Source: a virus. From it: 23,306 nucleotides of DNA. The notes beneath the pieces were generated by a model. It was not told the DNA's origin, ran no database searches, and saw nothing but the letters and a program-made list of their open reading frames with translations. This document shows positions 487 to 23,306 of the stretch, one piece after another. The stretch lies in IMG/VR virus record IMGVR_UViG_3300022845_000382, positions 1 to 23,306 of that record, one strand, 5' to 3'. Numbering within the stretch: the first letter of the stretch is position 1; every line of letters begins with the position of its first letter. The translations under genes were made by a program, and so were the position numbers.

Positions 487-3405
487 TTAATAGCTTCCCG
501 CAGCTGGGTTAAGGCCGTAGCGGCGTTCTAGAGTGGGAGCCAATCCTTCACCTCGACTGATGTTACGGGCCAGTTTGCCCTCGACTTTTTCGACGACAAT
601 ATCCAAACCCAGACTGCCACTGGAATCGCGCCGCGATTGCACTGTGGCTTCTGTTCCCGGAGCCCGGTTATTCACGTTAACAACGACCTTAACTTCCGGC
701 TTCTGGCCTAGTTCCGAACCCAACATCCGCATCTGGCCCGCCGTGAACACCGTCTCACCCCGCTTGGCGATGATCGGAACTTCGCCGCCAACCACACCAC
801 CACTATGAAACCGTGGAACAGATGCAAATACCGCCGGATCAACAGATCGACTGGCAAGGGTGTCCATGCCAATGACGCCGCCCGTATGAGCAACCATCAC
901 CGGGCCTGCCGCCGGAAAGTCTCCCACCGGTGCAGATGACCCGCCACTAAACAAATTGGCCCCAATGGTGCTGAATACGTTTTCCAGAAAACCACTGAAG
1001 GGCTTGATGACCGACATACGAATGGCAGCCCGCATTGCCTCTTCGGCAATGGTGTTAAACAAATCAGCTGCATTGAACTTGCCAGTCTTGGCCCATTGAA
1101 CAAAAGCATCCTCCCCGGCCTTTAATGACCGAGTCGTAACCTGCTCAAACTGCTTGGCGGCATTACCTGCTTCATCGGCATAATCGCGCAAGGCCCGGGT
1201 GACGCCATCCGACCATTCCCGGCTGGCACTGAGCATCCGGCCATAGGCTTCCTCAGATGCGCGGGCAAAAGTCTCTTGAGCAATAGCTCCTTCATCAAGC
1301 AGACGATTGAGGTCCGCGATCTCGGCCTTATAGGCTTCCTGCGCTGTGCGCAGACTTTCCGTCAGGGCGCGTCCTTTTTCTTTCAGCTTGGCAGATTCCT
1401 GCTCTGCCTTATTACGGGCTTCAATGGCTTGCTGTTCATCGAACAATGCCCCGGCCAATTGCCGCACCTGTTGATGTTCAACAACCGTGGCTTCAGCAGA
1501 TAACCGCCGCAGAGCCTGTGAGATAAAACGTTGTTTGTCAGTCATCGCGAGCGCGTCATGTTCGCCGCGCAATCCATCAATGACCTTTCTATTGGCTTCA
1601 GCAATTCGGCCAGCTGCTTCCTGTGCCTTGGCGGCTAATTTTGCCAATTTGGCATCGCGCACGGAGGAAGCTTGATCCATCAAGGCATCCACCTGGGATT
1701 GGTTGCTGCCGTCCGGGGCAAGCAAGGCCTCAATGTCTTTTGCCAGTTGTTCGTATTCAGCACGGATACGATCCGCGCCCTGATGGGTCAGGGTGAACAA
1801 TTGCCGCTGCAGGTCTTTCTCAAATTTAGTGATGCTATCCGATCTTGCCTGTACAGCCTTGAAATCAACATCCGCTGTGCCGTCCGACGTAACCGTACTG
1901 GTTTTGGGATCTGGCTTGCCGCCCATATCTCGTTGCATCCAGGCAAGCTTTGCGGCCCATTGCTGATAAATGGCTGTCTTTTCTTTAAGCTGGCGTTCCA
2001 ATGCCACCTTGCGGCCCCAGCCAAGGGGATCGTCCATAAACCCGACATCGCCCAGTTCTTTTAACTCACGGGCAATGTCCTGCAATTCCTGACGGCGTTC
2101 CGCAACAATGGAGCGGGTGCTACCGAGGCTCAAACCATCAAAGTTAAAATCACCTTGGGCCAGAAGTTTCAATTGCTCATAGGCAATACTGGCTTGGTTT
2201 GCCAGGCTGCCCAATTCCTTAACTGCAGTGGTCACCCCGGGAGCCAAATCTTCGCCGATAGAACGCGCCAGAGATTTAATGTTATTCCACATCAGCTCCG
2301 TCTGGCTGTTTAGGCTCTCAAATGCTTTTGCCGCTTCTTCGTTCAAGGCCGTGGCGTTCTCGGTCTCACGATTGGCAAGATTAAGGGCTGTGGCCAACAA
2401 ATCAGCACGGCTTGCCAACACTGGCAGTGTTTTTAACAATCGTTGATCTGACAGACCCAATGCCGCCATGGCTTCCGCTGCAGATCCACCGGCATCGCTG
2501 ATCCGTTTCAAACCCTCGATAAACAACACGAAGGCTGCCGTAGCATCTTGGTTAAACAGGGTTTTGATTTCTGCACCGGTTTGACCGGTAATCTTCGATA
2601 AAATATCCAAATGCTTGCCACCACTGCGAACGGCGGCGTCCATCATATGCATGACCCGGCCAACAGACGTGCCTGCCACCTCGGATTTAACGCCAACGGA
2701 AGCCAATGCAGCCGCCAGCGCCGATGCCTGAGCAGAGCTCACGCCAAAGATAGCGGTGGCCCGGGCAATCTCGGTTGTCATTTCTGTAATTTGGCTTTCC
2801 GTGGCAGCAAAGTTATTGCCGAGAGCCACGATCACCGACCCCAGCACGTCCACGGTATCCATGGTCTCACCAGTAACATTAAGAATTCGCGCCAAAGCCA
2901 TCGCTGCTTCATTGCCCGATAGATCCGTCGCGGTTCCCAGTTTAGCCACAGTCTCGGTAAACCTAAGAATATTAGCGGCACCCTTGACCCCCAGCTGACC
3001 CGCACTTTGAGCAATGGCTAATAATTCGTCTGTGGCCACTGGGATCCGTTTGGAAAGCGCGTCGATATCTTGACCCAATGAGGTCAGTTCGCCTTTGGAC
3101 AGGTTGGCCGTCTTGCCAACGCCAATCAATCCAGCTTCAAAGTCAGCGTAGAGTTTGACCATTTCCTGCAGGCCACGAATGGCCCCGGCAGCAGCGATTG
3201 CTCCGTAGAGAAACTTCATATTGCGGCCCAGAGAGTGAGCGCGATCAGATAACTTGGTCAGGCCACGCGATGCTTTGCCACCAGCAGCCTCAATCTTCTT
3301 GAGAGACTTATCGCCAGCGCGGCCCACATCCATGAGCTCTGCCTTAACCTTGCCGCCACCGTCAACGCTGAGACGGATTGCATAGGTGTGTTTGGCTTTA
3401 GCCAT
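487..3405 (-). CDS. Phage tail tape measure protein (TP901 core, lambda-H-type C-terminus)
   Basis: 972 residues. It sets tail length and is packed in the tail tube lumen; in this family it also helps DNA entry. The N-terminal 50 residues are basic. A hydrophobic segment (FLYGAIAAAGAIRGL, about residues 65-80) leads into the TP901-type core (about 80-400), rich in A/S/T and with SAGQLGVKG and FGVSSAQASALAAALASVGV segments. The middle is strongly helical and coiled-coil-like (about 430-720). Residues from about 730 (RALRDYADEAGNAAKQFEQV, then WAKTGKFNAADLFN) match the lambda tape-measure C-terminal domain. At the roughly 0.15 nm per residue known for lambda, the tail would be near 145 nm (inference). 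Its ATG overlaps the stop of the preceding chaperone frame by one base (TAATG), a coupling arrangement. Confidence 0.95.
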   Translation of the reverse strand: MAKAKHTYAIRLSVDGGGKVKAELMDVGRAGDKSLKKIEAAGGKASRGLTKLSDRAHSLGRNMKFLYGAIAAAGAIRGLQEMVKLYADFEAGLIGVGKTANLSKGELTSLGQDIDALSKRIPVATDELLAIAQSAGQLGVKGAANILRFTETVAKLGTATDLSGNEAAMALARILNVTGETMDTVDVLGSVIVALGNNFAATESQITEMTTEIARATAIFGVSSAQASALAAALASVGVKSEVAGTSVGRVMHMMDAAVRSGGKHLDILSKITGQTGAEIKTLFNQDATAAFVLFIEGLKRISDAGGSAAEAMAALGLSDQRLLKTLPVLASRADLLATALNLANRETENATALNEEAAKAFESLNSQTELMWNNIKSLARSIGEDLAPGVTTAVKELGSLANQASIAYEQLKLLAQGDFNFDGLSLGSTRSIVAERRQELQDIARELKELGDVGFMDDPLGWGRKVALERQLKEKTAIYQQWAAKLAWMQRDMGGKPDPKTSTVTSDGTADVDFKAVQARSDSITKFEKDLQRQLFTLTHQGADRIRAEYEQLAKDIEALLAPDGSNQSQVDALMDQASSVRDAKLAKLAAKAQEAAGRIAEANRKVIDGLRGEHDALAMTDKQRFISQALRRLSAEATVVEHQQVRQLAGALFDEQQAIEARNKAEQESAKLKEKGRALTESLRTAQEAYKAEIADLNRLLDEGAIAQETFARASEEAYGRMLSASREWSDGVTRALRDYADEAGNAAKQFEQVTTRSLKAGEDAFVQWAKTGKFNAADLFNTIAEEAMRAAIRMSVIKPFSGFLENVFSTIGANLFSGGSSAPVGDFPAAGPVMVAHTGGVIGMDTLASRSVDPAVFASVPRFHSGGVVGGEVPIIAKRGETVFTAGQMRMLGSELGQKPEVKVVVNVNNRAPGTEATVQSRRDSSGSLGLDIVVEKVEGKLARNISRGEGLAPTLERRYGLNPAAGSY

Positions 3406-3659
3406 TAATCTGTTTCTTTCTGGTTCATCGCTTCAATCAACCCGTTTTCTGCCGCGCTCAAAAGTTCCGACAATACGCCGGTCTCAAAGCCCCGAACCTC
3501 GGCAATCTTGAGGGCAGCGCTCATATCAATGCCCGCCACATGGCCAGACGGTGTAAACCGCAATTGACCAAGGCAGGCGTTGAGCACGTCCCAGGCTTGG
3601 TGTTCTTCCGCTGATTGCAAGGCGTGTTCTTGGTAGGGGCAAAGATCGTCATCTATGAC
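3405..3659 (-). CDS. Tail assembly chaperone T-like frame, probably expressed as a -1 frameshift fusion
   Basis: The frame is open to the slippery A_AAG at 3662-3659 and ends at 3405. The first conventional start codon in it is a TTG at 3620 without a Shine-Dalgarno sequence. The part upstream of that TTG encodes VIDDDLCPYQEHA, and a CP-Y/W-x-E motif at the N-terminus is typical of short phage tail chaperones of the DUF1799 kind. Using the TTG would remove this motif. The rest (WDVLNACLGQLRF, GIDMSAALKIAEVRG) also fits that family. In lambda the T domain is made only as a G-T fusion that binds the tape measure and recruits tail tube subunits, and the same is inferred here. If made alone from TTG it would be 71 residues. 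Confidence 0.75.
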   Translation of the reverse strand, partial: VIDDDLCPYQEHALQSAEEHQAWDVLNACLGQLRFTPSGHVAGIDMSAALKIAEVRGFETGVLSELLSAAENGLIEAMNQKETD

Positions 3660-3680
3660 TTTGCGGCCACGGTGTCCTGT
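3653..3680 (-). other. Candidate -1 programmed ribosomal frameshift site (G to G-T)
   Basis: Near the end of the G-like gene the zero-frame reads GCC GCA AAG TCA TAG. The tetramer A_AAG (3662-3659) is a known -1 slip motif, and slipping one base back gives AAG-GTC-ATA-GAT, exactly the frame that continues to the T-like domain. An AGGA (within ACAGGACACCG) lies about 12 bases upstream, in the range where Shine-Dalgarno-like elements stimulate -1 shifting. A short inverted repeat GTCAT/ATGAC follows immediately. The upstream codon GCA does not re-pair well on CGC, so this is not a full XXXYYYZ heptamer, and efficiency may be low, as suits the minor G-T product. Confidence 0.6.
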
Positions 3681-4180
3681 GCCGCCTTGCGCGCAGGACG
3701 CGCCTTCTTCCCGGCATCCTTCGCAGTATCCGGGCCCTCCGCCTGACTTAAAGTGCCAGAGGCAGAGAGCCCTGATGCGTTTTTTGCGGCGTTGAGCAAC
3801 ATCTGCTGCAAAGTCAGCTTTTGCAGAAACTGCTCGCCGACTGGATAGAGGTCCATCACCGCGATGATATTGTCCCGGGTGACCGGTGGATCATCTTCGA
3901 TGCCGATCCAGGCGGTAATCTGGCGTGTGGCCAATTCATAAACGACCTGACATTGCAGAAAGCCGTCCCGCTCATCATTGATGCTTAAGTCAGGGAGCCC
4001 GTCCAACGACAGACCTGATTCTTTGCGGTCGCGCACTTGGGTTTCCACTGCTTCGACGCGACGACGGGCACCGGCTTGAGCCGCTGCCATTGCCGTTGTG
4101 GTTAAGGGTGTAACGGTGACGGTAATGGCGTAGGGAAGCTCAATGTCAAAGGGCTCGTTCGGTTGTTTTAATGAGATCAT
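3653..4180 (-). CDS. Tail assembly chaperone (gpG-like)
   Basis: 175 residues, between the tail tube gene and the tape measure, which is the place of lambda G. The N-terminus (ISLKQPNEPFDIELPYAITVTVTPLT) is a strand-rich region, the middle is helical (AMAAAQAGARRRVEAVETQVRD), and the last 40 residues are low-complexity and basic (KDAGKKARPARKAAQDTVAAKS), as expected for a linker before a fused T domain. Its ATG overlaps the tail tube stop (ATGA, 4180-4177). The role is to coat the tape measure during tail assembly and leave before completion. The assignment rests on position, length and the frameshift context, not on a strong sequence motif. Confidence 0.8.
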   Translation of the reverse strand: MISLKQPNEPFDIELPYAITVTVTPLTTTAMAAAQAGARRRVEAVETQVRDRKESGLSLDGLPDLSINDERDGFLQCQVVYELATRQITAWIGIEDDPPVTRDNIIAVMDLYPVGEQFLQKLTLQQMLLNAAKNASGLSASGTLSQAEGPDTAKDAGKKARPARKAAQDTVAAKS

Positions 4181-5127
4181 GAGTATTCTGTCCCATCCAG
4201 ATCGTTGATCAATGTCACCGTCAGCATGCGACCTGCCGCTTCATTCTTGGCCCCTTGAAAATCAAAGCTGGCCTGAATGCCGCCAGGACCTTCTACGGCC
4301 AGCTTGGGCTTTGGCAGATAAACTTCGTGAGCCGTGAACATGACGCTGGATGTGCCAACCGTATATCCGAATTCCAGATCCACTGGCGTTCCGCTGGAAG
4401 CCGCGTCAATCAGTGTGGTATCGGCAAACCGTACATCGATGCGACCTGACAATGATGCCACTGTGGGGTCAGCACCATCAATCAATCCATCAGAACGGAT
4501 GGTTTCTATTTTCTCAAGATTATTGGAATAGGTCAGTGAGCCGGAAGTGAGGTTTGCGACCGCCGTGCCCGCTTGTTTGATGGAGCCCTGGAATTGGCTG
4601 ATGCGGTTGAAAGCTAGTGTACTTGGTGTGCCGCCCTGGGATGTGCCATTACGGGTCTCTCCCTGAGCGATGGCATTGATGGTCGCCGCTGCAGCACCGG
4701 ACCGCTGAAAGTCCAAAGCAATGGAATTAAGAACCACACCTGCATGCATAAAGAAGGCTGGCACCTGGGCCATGCCAACTTCAAGAGAATAGCTTGGTAG
4801 GCTGTCTACACCCGACACAAATACATGACTGAAGGTACCGTCCAAATTATCGGTGCTGGCTGGATCACCGAACAAGCCGGTGAGCCAGAGGCCCAGATAA
4901 CGTGGGTCCATTGGGACCGTGATATCGCCTTCATCGTTGATCACATCCTGCAAGGGTGCCAGAGGGTCACGGCCCTGACCCAAAACCGGATCATCAATCA
5001 GGCCTTGTTCTGATCCCAAAGAGACGCTGTTGAACGGCATCCGGATGTAATCGCCAGGTGGCGATGTGCCATAGGCGGTTTCTCGTTTGAGCAGCAGTGT
5101 TGCGCTCGAACCATAGGCTCGCGACAT
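4177..5127 (-). CDS. Major tail tube protein (Phage_tube_2-like, gpV position)
   Basis: 316 residues, forming the hexameric rings of the tail tube. The N-terminus (SRAYGSSATLLLKRETAYGTSP) and the following MPFNSVSLGSEQGLIDDPVLGQGRDP are typical of the tail tube family in which an 'E..YGT' start is followed by a strand-rich beta sandwich. PMDPRYLGLWLTGLFGDP and the later SGSLTYSNNLEKIETIRSDG support the match. A good ribosome binding site (AGGAG, 7 bases before the ATG) indicates high expression, as expected for the most abundant tail protein. It is followed by the gpG-like chaperone with a four-base overlap. Confidence 0.9.
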   Translation of the reverse strand: MSRAYGSSATLLLKRETAYGTSPPGDYIRMPFNSVSLGSEQGLIDDPVLGQGRDPLAPLQDVINDEGDITVPMDPRYLGLWLTGLFGDPASTDNLDGTFSHVFVSGVDSLPSYSLEVGMAQVPAFFMHAGVVLNSIALDFQRSGAAAATINAIAQGETRNGTSQGGTPSTLAFNRISQFQGSIKQAGTAVANLTSGSLTYSNNLEKIETIRSDGLIDGADPTVASLSGRIDVRFADTTLIDAASSGTPVDLEFGYTVGTSSVMFTAHEVYLPKPKLAVEGPGGIQASFDFQGAKNEAAGRMLTVTLINDLDGTEYS

Positions 5128-5154: not shown

Positions 5155-5586
5155 TTAGCCGAGTGGGCTGGTGGTTTCGTATTCGACGGTTACGGTCATC
5201 ACACCGGTCTTGATAGCCGGGGCACCCGCCACAGCTTCCGTGTTAATTTCTGGACGGCCATAGGCCATACCGAAGGCAAGGCCACCGAGGGTGGGATCAA
5301 CCTCCAGTACAGTGCCAATCGCCTGCACTAATGCATCAAAGGCGGTATCGCGGGCTGTTGCGTTGCCGTCCTCGATGTAAATTTCGATTTCGATATTATG
5401 GCTGTAATAGATGCCCCCAAAGCCACCAAGTGCTGTCTCAGGCTCCCCGGGGTCGCCATCGCGCAGCACGATCAGGCCGCCAGTTGGTACTTTCTCGGGA
5501 ACTGCGGTGTTGCGCTCGACCTTGCCTCCCGGCACCGTTATGAGCAGGGCTTTGATTGCTTCAAGAATTTGTTCTGTTCTACTCAT
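5155..5586 (-). CDS. Tail terminator / minor tail protein (gpU position)
   Basis: 143 residues. The start MSRTEQILEAIKALLITV followed by the strand VERNTAVPEKVPTGGLIVLRDGDPGEPE, the middle HNIEIEIYIEDGNATARDTAFDALVQAIG and the closing MTVTVEYETTS match the small alpha/beta fold of phage tail terminators, which cap the completed tube and join it to the head. It lies just before the tail tube gene, as U precedes V in lambda. It is separated from its expected upstream partner (DUF6441, 6440-7081) by the oppositely oriented toxin-antitoxin cassette, so the late transcript must cross about 0.85 kb of antisense sequence to reach it. Confidence 0.8.
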   Translation of the reverse strand: MSRTEQILEAIKALLITVPGGKVERNTAVPEKVPTGGLIVLRDGDPGEPETALGGFGGIYYSHNIEIEIYIEDGNATARDTAFDALVQAIGTVLEVDPTLGGLAFGMAYGRPEINTEAVAGAPAIKTGVMTVTVEYETTSPLG

Positions 5587-5654: not shown

Positions 5655-5942
5655 ATGACGGCAATAGCGATTTCAAAAACCCAACGCGTTAACCTGCGTC
5701 TCAATGACGATGCCAAACACACCATTGAACGCGCCGCCTCGTTTGAGGGAAAAACGGTTAGTAAATTTATTCTTGCCAGCGCACTGGCGTCTGCAGAACA
5801 GACGATCCATGAGCATGAAACCATGACCCTCAGCAAAAGAGATGCTGAGACATTCTTTAATGCTTTATCTAAGCCAATTAAATTAAATGCAAAGCTGCTC
5901 TCCGCGCTTGATGAGCACGATCAGCGTGTTGTTTCTAAATGA
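5655..5942 (+). CDS. tacA: DUF1778 (TacA-type) antitoxin
   Basis: 95 residues. The N-terminal half (SKTQRVNLRLNDDAKHTIERAA, then FEGKTVSKFILASALASAEQTI) is the DUF1778 ribbon-helix-helix DNA-binding domain: a short strand RVNLRL followed by two helices. The acidic/polar C-terminus (LSKRDAETFFNALSKP and onward) is the part that, in the family, wraps around and neutralises the GNAT toxin. Autorepression with the toxin as co-repressor is known for the family. It is on the plus strand inside a minus-strand late operon and looks more AT-rich than its neighbours, which suggests separate acquisition. It overlaps the toxin start by four bases (ATGA). Confidence 0.93.
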   Translation: MTAIAISKTQRVNLRLNDDAKHTIERAASFEGKTVSKFILASALASAEQTIHEHETMTLSKRDAETFFNALSKPIKLNAKLLSALDEHDQRVVSK

Positions 5943-6439
5943 CGAATAGGCCAGATTTGGTCATTGAGCCGCTTGGGAAAAAACATAACCGGGCGGTTTT
6001 TTCTTGTGGCACAGATGAACTCGACACCTACCTCCAGCGACAAGCTTCTCAAGATACCAAAAGACGGATCTCTAGAATTTTTGTCATACGTTCTGAAGAA
6101 GATGATCAAACCATTCTCGGCTATTACACCCTGAGTGCCCTTTCGATTGATCTTTCTTCCTTACCAAGTGATCTTGCCAAAAAACTACCCAAGCACCCTC
6201 TTCCAGCTGCATTAATTGGTCGGCTGGCAGTCAGCACAAAATCTCAAGGAGCCGGGCTCGGAAAAGTCCTTCTTGCCGACGCCATAAAACGAACCCTTGC
6301 TCTCAGTGATGAGATCGGTGTTTACGCCATGGTTGTTGATGCATTGAATACGGATGCTGAAGCGTTTTACCAAGGTTTCGGATTTTCTAAATTGGGCACA
6401 GCCACAAATCGTCTGTTTTTACCGTTGAAATCCGTCTAA
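5939..6439 (+). CDS. tacT: GNAT-family acetyltransferase toxin (TacT-like)
   Basis: 166 residues. Family members acetylate the amino group of charged aminoacyl-tRNAs and stop translation. The N-terminal signature FSCGTDELDTYLQRQASQD (about 21-39) is typical of TacT-type toxins. The acetyl-CoA loop QGAGLGK lies at 103-109, following RLAV, and Tyr144 in EAFYQGFGF is the expected catalytic-region tyrosine. Length is normal and no lesion is visible, so it should be active. Its stop codon (ends 6439) abuts the stop of the convergent DUF6441 gene (ends 6440) with no base between and no terminator, so the two transcripts must overlap. Confidence 0.93.
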   Translation: MTNRPDLVIEPLGKKHNRAVFSCGTDELDTYLQRQASQDTKRRISRIFVIRSEEDDQTILGYYTLSALSIDLSSLPSDLAKKLPKHPLPAALIGRLAVSTKSQGAGLGKVLLADAIKRTLALSDEIGVYAMVVDALNTDAEAFYQGFGFSKLGTATNRLFLPLKSV

Positions 6440-14925: not shown

Positions 14926-15153
14926 TCAAACCCAGACTTTCCGCATCCGGATTTCTTCAAACACCCGGCGAAGCGTATAACTCCGCACAATTGAAATGCC
15001 GGTAAAGATCGCCCCAATGACAAGATTGTCTACCAAAGAAACTTCAAGCCCAAACAGAGGAAAGACCAAAACCTGAGCCGATACGGCAACGCCATATCCA
15101 ACGGCCACGTTAATCAATGATTCCAATAATGACATTCGTTTCGATTGTCTCAT
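14926..15153 (-). CDS. DUF7220-like small membrane protein
   Basis: 75 residues with two predicted hydrophobic segments (LINVAVGYGVAVSAQVLVFPLFGL at about 13-36 and VDNLVIGAIFTGISIVRSY at about 41-59) and a basic C-terminus (RRVFEEIRMRKV). The start MRQSKRMSLLESLINVAVGYG is highly characteristic of a small family seen in alphaproteobacterial phages (DUF7220). Its function is unknown; inner-membrane location is inferred. The ATG overlaps the methyltransferase stop (15153-15150, ATGA), so it is coupled to that gene. Confidence 0.82.
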   Translation of the reverse strand: MRQSKRMSLLESLINVAVGYGVAVSAQVLVFPLFGLEVSLVDNLVIGAIFTGISIVRSYTLRRVFEEIRMRKVWV

Positions 15154-16475
15154 GCGGGTACTCTTTCTTCTTGAATTTCATCAAACGAACGGTCATCACC
15201 ATCCAGCATTGCGGCTTTACCTGTAGCTTTTTGCCACCGCATCACGGCCACGTCTACATATGTCGGCCCGATCTCCATGGCATAAACTCGGCGTCCGGTG
15301 CTTTCACCGGCCATGATCTGCGATCCCGAACCAGAAAACGGCTCGTAGCACAGACCGCCAATCTCCACATGCTGGCGCATGGGGATGGCAAAACAATCAA
15401 GTGGTTTCGGCGTTGGGTGGTCCGGGCGTTCATCACCGCTGAGACCGTGAATATCCCAGACCGATGCCAGGAAATCAGCACCATCAATTTTTGGCGGCAT
15501 GTTGCCCTTAATCCAGCCCATCAGGCAGGGCTCATGTTTCCAGAGATACTTGGAACGGGTGAGCACACCCTTTTCCTTATTCCAGATAATTTGCTGATGC
15601 TGAAACGCGCCCAGCTCCGTCCAGACTTCTTCCAGCATGGCTTGGCGGCGCGATGCATGCCAGCAATACCAGGCTGCATTGAGCTCGATGGCTTCGGCAA
15701 TGGCAGCCTTGATAAATCCACGATATAGTTCGGGGCCTTGAGATGAATCATCCCAGGTCACACCATAGGTTTCAGACCAATCCTTGTTGCCGTCGGTCCC
15801 GCTTTTATCGCCCTTGGCCACCTTGCCTTTGCGCGCACTGTTTTGCGGATGGTTGGTGCCATCGTAATCGACTAAGTAAGGCGGGTCGGTAGCAAACAGG
15901 ACGGCGCGCTCGCCGTTCATCAGGCGTTTGACATCTTCCGCATTGGTGCTGTCGCCGCACAGCAGACGGTGATCACCGAGCAACCACAGATCGCCGATTT
16001 TGGAAACTGGTGTGACAGGAGGTTCTGGAACATCGCCATCACCTATGCCACCGGGTTCGCCCAAAGCATTCGCCAACATGGTCGCAACTTCGTTTTCATC
16101 AAACCCAAGCGGGCCTGCAAACTCATCATCCTTGAGCGCTTGTAGATCAATGACCAACTGATCCAGGTCCCATTCGGACTCTGCAGATTTATTGTCCAGC
16201 AGTCGTGCGGCCTTCACCTGTGCCGGGGTCAGATCGTCGCGCACGATGACCGGCACCGACGCAAGCCCGAGGCGCACAGCAGCCAAGCGCCGACCATGTC
16301 CCTTGATGATCACGCCATCGACATCAACCACAATGGGTTGGTCAAAACCGTACTCGGCGATAGATCCTGCAATCTTATCGATCTGATCATCCGGATGGGT
16401 TTTGGCGTTGTGGGCGTAGGGTGTCAGCTCCGCCGGATCCTTTTGGATCACGTCAGCCAGAAAAGTTTTAGACAT
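15150..16475 (-). CDS. ParB-N domain fused to a beta-class DNA methyltransferase (orphan)
   Basis: 441 residues. The N-terminal ParB/Srx-like domain (about 15-100) has KGHGRRLAAVRLG (GHGR at 59-62). The methyltransferase has motif IV DPPY at 197-200, a target region, HPTPKPLDCF at 353-362 and motif I FSGSGSQIMAG from 380. That order (IV before I) is the beta class, which modifies the exocyclic amino group of adenine or cytosine. No restriction endonuclease is next to it, so it is an orphan phage methylase, perhaps protecting phage DNA from host restriction or timing replication/packaging. ParB-MTase fusions are common in tailed phages. The start lacks a strong ribosome site (GGGA at about 11 bases). 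Confidence 0.93.
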   Translation of the reverse strand: MSKTFLADVIQKDPAELTPYAHNAKTHPDDQIDKIAGSIAEYGFDQPIVVDVDGVIIKGHGRRLAAVRLGLASVPVIVRDDLTPAQVKAARLLDNKSAESEWDLDQLVIDLQALKDDEFAGPLGFDENEVATMLANALGEPGGIGDGDVPEPPVTPVSKIGDLWLLGDHRLLCGDSTNAEDVKRLMNGERAVLFATDPPYLVDYDGTNHPQNSARKGKVAKGDKSGTDGNKDWSETYGVTWDDSSQGPELYRGFIKAAIAEAIELNAAWYCWHASRRQAMLEEVWTELGAFQHQQIIWNKEKGVLTRSKYLWKHEPCLMGWIKGNMPPKIDGADFLASVWDIHGLSGDERPDHPTPKPLDCFAIPMRQHVEIGGLCYEPFSGSGSQIMAGESTGRRVYAMEIGPTYVDVAVMRWQKATGKAAMLDGDDRSFDEIQEERVPA

Positions 16476-16701: not shown

Positions 16702-17400
16702 TTATTGCTGTGACCGCCGCCAGCCAGCAACTTTAGCCTCTTCCTCAGAGCAGAACCAACGTTCGCCCTTTGACTCGTCAATGCGTGTTTGTTCGTAATG
16801 ACGCTCGCCGGGCACATGAAATATCTTGGAGCCATTGCGGCTGACATTGCCTTTGATCTCGCACCCACCAGAAGCCTGATCTGTTGAGGTGGTTCGGTCC
16901 GTGGCGGCGAGCCTTGCACCCTTGCGCCAGTCCCAAGGGGCGATGAATGAGCCCGCCCAAAGTCCGCGATTGTTGCTTTTGGCTTCGGCTTCCTCGCCAA
17001 CAAACTCGTTGGAGTAGCGACGATAAGCCAGCGCCCATCCTTGACTGACGAGGGATGCGTTGAGGTTTGTCTGATCTACGAAGCAAACGGCAATCACACG
17101 ACCATAGCGATCCTGATCCGTACCCTCGCACCGCACATCAGTGGAGCCTATCAGCTCACTCAGAGCGACCGTAGCCTTCTGCCCACATCGATAGGTTTTG
17201 CCATTTGTCTGACAGCTTTGTTTGCTCTCAGGCGCATCGATGCCGTGCATACGGATCTTGGTGCCAGTGATTTCAAGGGTGTCACCATCCACGACCCTGG
17301 CCGGACCAACAACGTCAGCCTTGGCTGTGATCGGCACAATAGCAACGGCGATAGCCGCAAGTGCAATCAGCAGAAATGACCGGATAGATCCAAACGACAT
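16702..17400 (-). CDS. Secreted SNase-like (thermonuclease-family) nuclease
   Basis: 232 residues from ATG at 17400; a TTG at 17439 is rejected because the ATG gives a clean signal peptide (MSFGSIRSFLLIALAAIAVA with AKA-D cleavage after about residue 28). The SNase core follows: ARVVDGDTLEI (33-43), RMHGIDAPESKQSC (50-63, with Arg50, Asp55 and Glu58), DRYGRVIAVCF with the second catalytic-type Arg, and NASLVSQGWALAYRRYS. The C-terminal domain GCEIKGNVSRNGSKIFHVPG ending in GERWFCSEEEAKVAGWRRS is the add-on often attached to bacterial SNases. It likely acts in the periplasm or outside and degrades nucleic acid. It appears to be a self-contained accessory gene flanked by terminators on both sides. 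Confidence 0.88.
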   Translation of the reverse strand: MSFGSIRSFLLIALAAIAVAIVPITAKADVVGPARVVDGDTLEITGTKIRMHGIDAPESKQSCQTNGKTYRCGQKATVALSELIGSTDVRCEGTDQDRYGRVIAVCFVDQTNLNASLVSQGWALAYRRYSNEFVGEEAEAKSNNRGLWAGSFIAPWDWRKGARLAATDRTTSTDQASGGCEIKGNVSRNGSKIFHVPGERHYEQTRIDESKGERWFCSEEEAKVAGWRRSQQ

Positions 17401-17530
17401 GATCTCAACAACTTTCAAACAACAGGTAATTTGACCCAAGAAAAATGGTTTCTATGTTGCCACCGTGTCCGTGCCAAACTCTCCTGAGAATAGTCAAAAA
17501 CATAGCCCATTTGCCCTTTTCTGTCCGCGC
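17401..17530. other. Leader and spacer upstream of the nuclease gene
   Basis: No gene seen. The nuclease must be transcribed from here because a terminator-like hairpin lies just upstream (17531-17556). Candidate boxes are weak: TTTGGC, 16 bases, CATAGA on the minus strand. The ribosome site before ATG 17400 is also poor (GTTGAGATC). Confidence 0.3.
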
Positions 17531-22400: not shown

Positions 22401-22640
22401 TCATGCTGCCCTCCGGTCACCATCAGGGGCGTTCAACACCAGATTGGTGATAGCCGCCTTGTTGAACTGGAAGGTCAGCAGAGCCGAAGCCTGATACCGG
22501 GTGAGGCCAAAATCCTGGCGGTATTCAGGTGGTAAGAATTGGAGCTGACGGGTTGTGACCGATTGATTAAGCCAGGAACGAGACTTGTGGGCACTTTCGT
22601 CTGTCTCATTCTCATTAAGCCAGTCATCGGCTGCGGCAAA
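22401..22640 (-). pseudogene. 3' fragment of a phage gene cut by an IS remnant
   Basis: The preserved C-terminal part reads AAADDWLNENETDESAHKS, then LPPEYRQDFGLTRYQASALL, and a final FQFNKAAITNLVLNAP. It looks like a real, conserved phage protein end. Upstream of about 22640 the minus frame enters sequence that encodes a transposase on the other strand, so the natural N-terminus is lost. The open frame happens to continue to an ATG at 22733, giving a possible chimeric 110-residue protein with a meaningless N-terminus. I do not recognise the original family. A short stop-to-start gap (3 bases) links it to the DUF6511 gene, showing that it was once part of the same operon. Confidence 0.65.
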
Positions 22641-23306
22641 ACATCCAACGCGCTCACGGGAACACCGCTTGCCCGCCTGCGGCACAAGGACCGCTGTGCG
22701 GTGGCCGGTAGTACTGCTTTTCGTTGGCGTCACCGCTTCCTGCGCGCAGTGACCGCCGGTGCAATCAAGCTACGCGGCATCGTCGAAGCCGATGAGACTT
22801 TCGTTTTGAGCAGCCGTAAAGGTGAACGAAACCTGGATCGAAAGGCCCGAAAGCGGGGCGGTAAGGCCTCCAAACGAGGCGTGTCGGACGAGCAAATTCC
22901 GGTCCTGGTGGCAGCCGACCGCTCGGGTACCACCGTCAGTGCCGTATTGCCGACGGTGTCTGCCGCTCATCTGCAAGCAGTTCTGCAACCGGTTCTCGAT
23001 CCAGATGCTCTGTTGGTCACCGATGGCTGCACCAGCTATCCGCCTTGCGCGGCGGCAATGGGCATCAGCCATGAAAGCCTCAACCAAACCGCCGGTGAGC
23101 GTGTCCGGGGTGAATTGCATATTCAGACCGTCAACAGCCGCCACGAGAGGCTCAAGACTTTCCTGCGCCGTCATCGTGGGATCGCCACCAAGTATCTCGA
23201 CAGCTACCTCCGATGGTTTCACCTCGCCGTTCTTCCGAGACATCCAACACCGCGCGCAGTGCTTGCCGCAGCCGCCGGAATCCTGCCTGTCAGACAATGT
23301 GCATAG
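22635..23306 (+). pseudogene. IS1595/ISXO2-type transposase remnant, 5' truncated and internally deleted
   Basis: The frame from about GKTSNALTGTPLARLRHK to the stop at the window end matches the ISXO2-like family: DDE-domain parts GIVEADETFVLSSRKGERNL (first Asp), DALLVTDGCTSYPP (second Asp), and HIQTVNSRHERLKTFLRRHR followed by ATKYLDSYLRW with the Asn of the family's DDN motif. Two defects are visible. The N-terminal zinc ribbon (normally two CxxC pairs before GKTFNALTGTPLARL) is replaced by phage sequence. About 25 residues between LRHKDR and STAFRWRHRFL are reduced to CAVAG. It is therefore unlikely to be active. The frame is open further left to 22539, but that part is antisense to the phage gene. 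Confidence 0.8.
22635..23306 (+). mobile_element. Decayed IS1595-family insertion sequence (left end missing)
   Basis: The element is recognised only by its transposase. The left terminal inverted repeat is absent, because the transposase joins directly to phage coding sequence within about 22632-22645. The right end lies at or beyond the window edge and cannot be judged. No target-site duplication can be tested here. Confidence 0.6.

Follow-up and report, generated by a model that had tools for sequence, protein, structure and literature searches.

A -1 programmed ribosomal frameshift at the slippery heptamer A_AAA_AAC (3779-3785, minus strand) very probably joins two overlapping reading frames, G and T, into a lambda-type G/GT tail assembly chaperone gene in the sequence analyzed here. 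The window, by which we mean the whole stretch of DNA under study, is a metagenome-derived IMG/VR virus record of 23,306 bases. The initial annotation had proposed a -1 frameshift joining G and T and had placed it at the very end of G. The comparative data strongly support the fusion itself, but the place was wrong: the true candidate site lies about 120 bases earlier than the A_AAG tetramer that had been put forward.

Two overlapping frames between the tail tube and tape measure genes

The structural genes of the window lie on the minus strand in the order terminase, portal, S49 protease, capsid protein E, head-tail attachment, DUF6441, tail terminator (5155-5586; phrog_4204, E 4.3e-27), tail tube protein (4177-5127; PF18906 Phage_tube_2, E 1.1e-51), G, T, and tape measure protein (487-3405; PF10145, E 5e-19; PF09718, E 8e-22). 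G and T form an overlapping pair of open reading frames (3405-4180) flanked by the tail tube and tape measure genes, the latter following immediately after T. Between the tail terminator and DUF6441, this minus-strand operon is interrupted by plus-strand genes (5655-6439) for a TacA1-like antitoxin (PF08681, E 7e-23) and a GNAT acetyltransferase (PF13673), a probable toxin-antitoxin pair. Elsewhere on the minus strand, a single protein combines a ParB N-terminal domain (just below cutoff) with an N6/N4 DNA methylase (15150-16475), and a staphylococcal-nuclease-like protein (16702-17439; PF00565) with an apparent N-terminal hydrophobic stretch is encoded in this phage genome. A candidate IS transposase, judged by its appearance, occupies 22539-23306 on the plus strand, where its reading frame runs off the window end.

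G (3653-4180, minus strand) is the zero frame, and its unshifted product has 175 aa. We predict that it is a tail assembly chaperone from the open reading frame itself, its tail tube and tape measure neighbors, and a weak homology to phrog_313 'Tail assembly chaperone' (E 2.3e-4). A Pfam domain search with G gave no match, nor did a PDB fold search, for which the query was a low-confidence model. Direct tblastn of G against named phages also returned zero matches, whereas the same search with T did find matches. On the minus strand, the end of G reads GCC GCA AAG TCA TAG, just as it had been described.

The T extension (3405-3779, minus strand) occupies the -1 frame relative to G and comprises 124 codons plus a TAA stop at 3407-3405. 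This frame opens at 3890, following an upstream stop at 3893, and overlaps the inside of G as open frame for about 235 nt. A start-codon scan found that ATG, GTG, and TTG are all absent between the stop at 3893 and a TTG at 3620, in agreement with the earlier view that T has no ATG or GTG start and that TTG 3620 is its only usable TTG. The CPY-E motif claimed to lie upstream of this TTG is also there; in the A2 alignment its Cys-Pro never varies.

Inside the G/-1 overlap, about 130 nt before the G stop, is a canonical A_AAA_AAC heptamer (3785-3779) in the context ...GCC GCA AAA AAC GCA..., in frame with G. The initial annotation was therefore mistaken in stating that the site is not a canonical heptamer. 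Ribosomes decoding GCA AAA AAC in the zero frame would re-pair on AAA AAA. By chance, 0.24 in-frame X_XXY_YYZ heptamers are expected per 78 codons of this phage's genes.

The placement at the G end invokes slippage at the non-canonical tetramer A_AAG (3659-3662, minus strand). Both the tetramer and an AGGA 12 bases upstream of it are present in the sequence, and the -1 frame stays open beyond this point. Conservation argues against it: A_AAG is found near the G stop in just 7 of the 22 compared sequences, and because 0.35 in-frame A_AAG are expected by chance per 78 codons of this phage's genes, its presence near the stop is unremarkable. The RNA that follows is unstructured, folding no better than shuffles (z +0.93). 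In addition, a product of slippage at A_AAG would miss three of the four invariant cysteines of T together with its first helices, and the -1 frame is under protein-level selection already from the heptamer, ahead of A_AAG. We consider slippage at this position extremely unlikely and reject it as a tetramer-type (Z_ZZN) example, since a conserved tetramer with a stimulator is absent.

Conservation of the heptamer and the frame under selection

Patterns built from G only recovered 22 IMG/VR loci and patterns built from the -1 frame recovered 23, and every junction-spanning locus from the two scans has A_AAA_AAC with T in the -1 frame. Profile searches with T gave 80 viral loci and 28 genome loci, the latter including Rhodospirillales, Thalassospira, Methylobacterium, Methylocystis, Xanthobacter, Rhodoplanes, and Caulobacter. 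A canonical heptamer is located exactly at T position 1 in 109 of 111 loci, a count that includes many near-duplicates and corresponds to 79 distinct downstream regions (65, 12, and 2 of the AAAAAAC, GGGAAAC, and AAAAAAA types, respectively). Among the 109 loci themselves, these types number 93, 14, and 2. The T-based scans used short peptide patterns adjoining the junction, and the pattern for the genome collection begins at T's second codon, which introduces a slight bias toward Lys there; the first scan, built from G only, gave the same result. As for the two exceptions, L146 (978) looks frame-broken and L153 (1436) has GGGGGAA.

The breadth of this set bears on two other ways of explaining the change of frame. 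The window is a metagenome-derived record, in which a sequencing error or a broken gene could mimic a frameshift; however, roughly a hundred loci, drawn from many different assemblies as well as cultured strains, show this frame relation, and the chance of such an artifact is practically negligible. RNA polymerase slippage would produce the fusion at the level of the transcript, the A6 run being a homopolymer from which the -1 frame is reached by one added A or two lost. In the 14 loci with G_GGA_AAC, however, the homopolymer is broken and tandem -1 re-pairing is kept, and the conserved RNA hairpin found at ribosome-pausing distance fits translation. A6 is also short for efficient slippage by the polymerase, and we regard this route as scarcely plausible. 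The reading that we favor remains ribosomal slippage at the heptamer.

Stop codons in the -1 frame delimit where the slip can occur. Such a stop lies 6 nt upstream of the heptamer in three near-identical sequences (L058, L125, and L134) and 3 nt upstream of it in L123. Because these stops close the -1 frame just upstream, the slip must be at the heptamer or later.

Existing annotations treat this junction in different ways. In the Rhodobacter phages RcKemmy and RcOceanus, a two-piece joined CDS is annotated here, with G_GGA_AAC. Nostoc phage Nsp-JY21 and Synechococcus phage Sc-Yong805-1, which are identical in this region, have T annotated as a separate gene (L047/L049:1426-1659), and these two related cyanophage records speak for a model in which translation of T begins separately at an internal codon (TTG 3620 or a non-standard start), coupled to the end of G. 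Yet both phages carry a slippery A_AAA_AAA and a hairpin at the same place, upstream of the annotated gene at 1300, with a -1 stop just upstream, and their separate T gene is probably an unrecognized frameshift product. In the window, no standard start codon precedes the conserved CPY motif. An independent start would also leave out the conserved segment between the heptamer and CPY, and the conserved heptamer and hairpin would go unexplained. Independent translation of T is thus very unlikely in our judgment, and the frameshift at A_AAA_AAC remains the preferred reading. For annotation, placing the T start at the G end drops the conserved cysteine-rich segment.

We then compared selection in the two frames. 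Over 18 sequences, with pN/pS taken as uncorrected proportions and bootstrapped over related sequences, zero-frame values rise from 0.17 and 0.10 in the two stretches preceding the heptamer to 0.87-1.0 beyond it, whereas -1-frame values fall from 3.1 and 4.75 in those stretches to 0.15 (stem) and 0.20 (later T domain). The heptamer, and not the G end, marks the point where purifying selection stops acting on the G frame and begins to act on the -1 frame. The zero-frame tail of G after the heptamer (3653-3778, minus strand) is free of amino-acid constraint. It is also predicted to be disordered: the G model loses order past residue 135, where the heptamer lies, and pLDDT is <50 across residues 136-175.

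The downstream hairpin and the T domain

A GC-rich candidate stimulatory hairpin (3732-3772, minus strand) with a 12-bp stem, GGGCUCUCUGCC / GGCGGAGGGCCC, starts 6 nt after the heptamer. Its folding energy in the window is -29.8 kcal/mol, compared with a mean of -15.7 for synonymous recodings of the -1 frame (z -4.0), and none of 300 recodings is as stable. The z scores of the 79 distinct sequences average -3.36 and are negative in 78 cases; the hairpins are weak in a few distant relatives (L116, L120, and L152). The synonymous rate in the stem (0.21) is about a third of that in the rest of T (0.61). The hairpin is conserved beyond what the encoded protein requires.

The stem is re-formed with other bases in other groups, for example as GCGCCCUUGC / GCAAGGGCGC in Rhodobacter phages, and a register scan shows peaks at two stem registers that are one base apart. 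These two registers are probably the reason why RNAalifold did not detect a consensus stem in the mixed alignment and returned only a spurious 4-pair helix. They also limit column-wise covariation to few positions, so that the compensatory pairs are few (columns 15-52/53, 16-52, 20-48, and 21-46) and covariation of the stem, taken alone, is only suggestive. An Rfam search gave nothing above the gathering score, and the mir-665 hit at E 0.056 is a hairpin look-alike. A second in-frame heptamer, GGGCCCG (3737-3731), was considered as the main site and rejected; it coincides with the stem's 3' arm, and upstream of this heptamer selection already acts on the -1 frame.

When read from the heptamer, T is conserved from its first residues (KRIRAL..WHF..GGG.GYC..C), with 26-40% identity from that point onward. 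It contains a DUF7697 domain (3417-3551, minus strand; PF24752, E 4.5e-10), and an overlap with DUF1799 is weak and falls below cutoff (E 0.052). A four-cysteine module (3639-3725, minus strand) has codons starting at 3725, 3716, 3695, and 3641, and each of these positions is Cys in 35 of 35 aligned sequences; three of the four are encoded between the heptamer and A_AAG, upstream of the latter. This is possibly a zinc-binding module that is restricted to the frameshifted product, zinc being suggested by the cysteines. The AlphaFold2 model of T is confident (mean pLDDT 84) and places a first helix at residues 2-11. Several phage tape measure chaperone predictions in BFVD are similar to this model, with modest E-values, and a PDB fold search with T gave no meaningful match.

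Proposed mechanism and comparison with known systems

We propose that most ribosomes would translate G to its TAG, releasing the 175-aa protein, while a minority would pause at the hairpin and undergo tandem slippage into the -1 frame at A_AAA_AAC. The predicted fusion product would consist of G residues 1-134 followed by 124 T residues, about 258 aa in all. By analogy with lambda, G would coat the tape measure protein, recruitment of the tail tube protein would fall to the T part, and the ratio of G to GT, set by the efficiency of the slip, would provide control over tail assembly.

With the corrected site and fusion sequence, it becomes possible to choose the proper junction peptide and control mutants. 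The loci number about a hundred, use two heptamers interchangeably together with a matching hairpin, and belong to hosts distant from E. coli. They also form a natural set that is well suited to asking why these phages use slippery sites ending in AAC. It is slightly unusual that an AAC slip codon, which is weak in E. coli, is conserved together with a hairpin across a wide, mainly alphaproteobacterial phage group. As a tentative idea, and one that we hold to be somewhat less likely than its opposite, a wide range of alphaproteobacterial phages and prophages may rely on this E. coli-weak AAC slippery codon, with the conserved hairpin making the codon usable. Only the frameshift would then supply the tail chaperone with the invariant module of four cysteines, which possibly binds zinc, and a dependence of tail initiation on metal or redox state might follow.

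The window has in common with lambda gpG/gpGT the position between tail tube and tape measure, the -1 frame, a short C-terminal T without a start of its own, and a canonical heptamer late in G. This likeness is one of layout and frame features. Unlike lambda, whose slippery site is GGGAAAG, the window has A_AAA_AAC, a strong conserved hairpin, a distance of about 130 nt from heptamer to G stop, and a four-cysteine segment at the junction. A conserved frameshift in tail genes was reportedly described by Xu, Hendrix and Duda in 2004. Tail chaperone frameshifts are common (PMC5009743; PMC10885494), and in lambda the GT product links the tape measure and tail tube proteins, with GT:G at about 1:30 (PMC5009743). 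A_AAA_AAC induces far less frameshifting in E. coli than A_AAA_AAG does (PMC5009743; PMC4066793).

Rhodobacter capsulatus phages RcKemmy, RcOceanus, and their relatives have a homologous T (about 30-34% identity) in a tail assembly chaperone annotated as a joined CDS. In RcKemmy and RcOceanus, a perfect hairpin of 10 bp follows G_GGA_AAC at a distance of 6 nt; these phages differ from the window in the heptamer, in the stem sequence, and in a register that is shifted by one base. According to the accessible part of PMC3556154, Caulobacter phage phiCbK has AAAAAAC and Colossus has GGGAAAC in the chaperones preceding the tape measure gene, that is, the same two heptamers at the same gene position in phages of an alphaproteobacterial host as here. 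That part of the paper reports no stem-loop at their sites, in contrast to the hairpin in the window. The Colossus protein has a weak fold match to the T model, and the likeness is otherwise one of heptamer and position.

For Burkholderia phages KL1 and AH2, the accessible text of PMC3483164 predicts both a -1 frameshift in the tail chaperone and a stem-loop downstream of the site, the KL1 heptamer being GGGAAAC. The KL1 site adjoins the G stop, in contrast to that of the window, and the same text reports no comparative test of the KL1/AH2 stem, whereas the window hairpin was tested across its relatives. AAAAAAC is also found in Acinetobacter phage Loki (PMC5313236). Both the lambda-type G/GT family and AAAAAAC/GGGAAAC at this gene position are thus already known, and the window adds another member.
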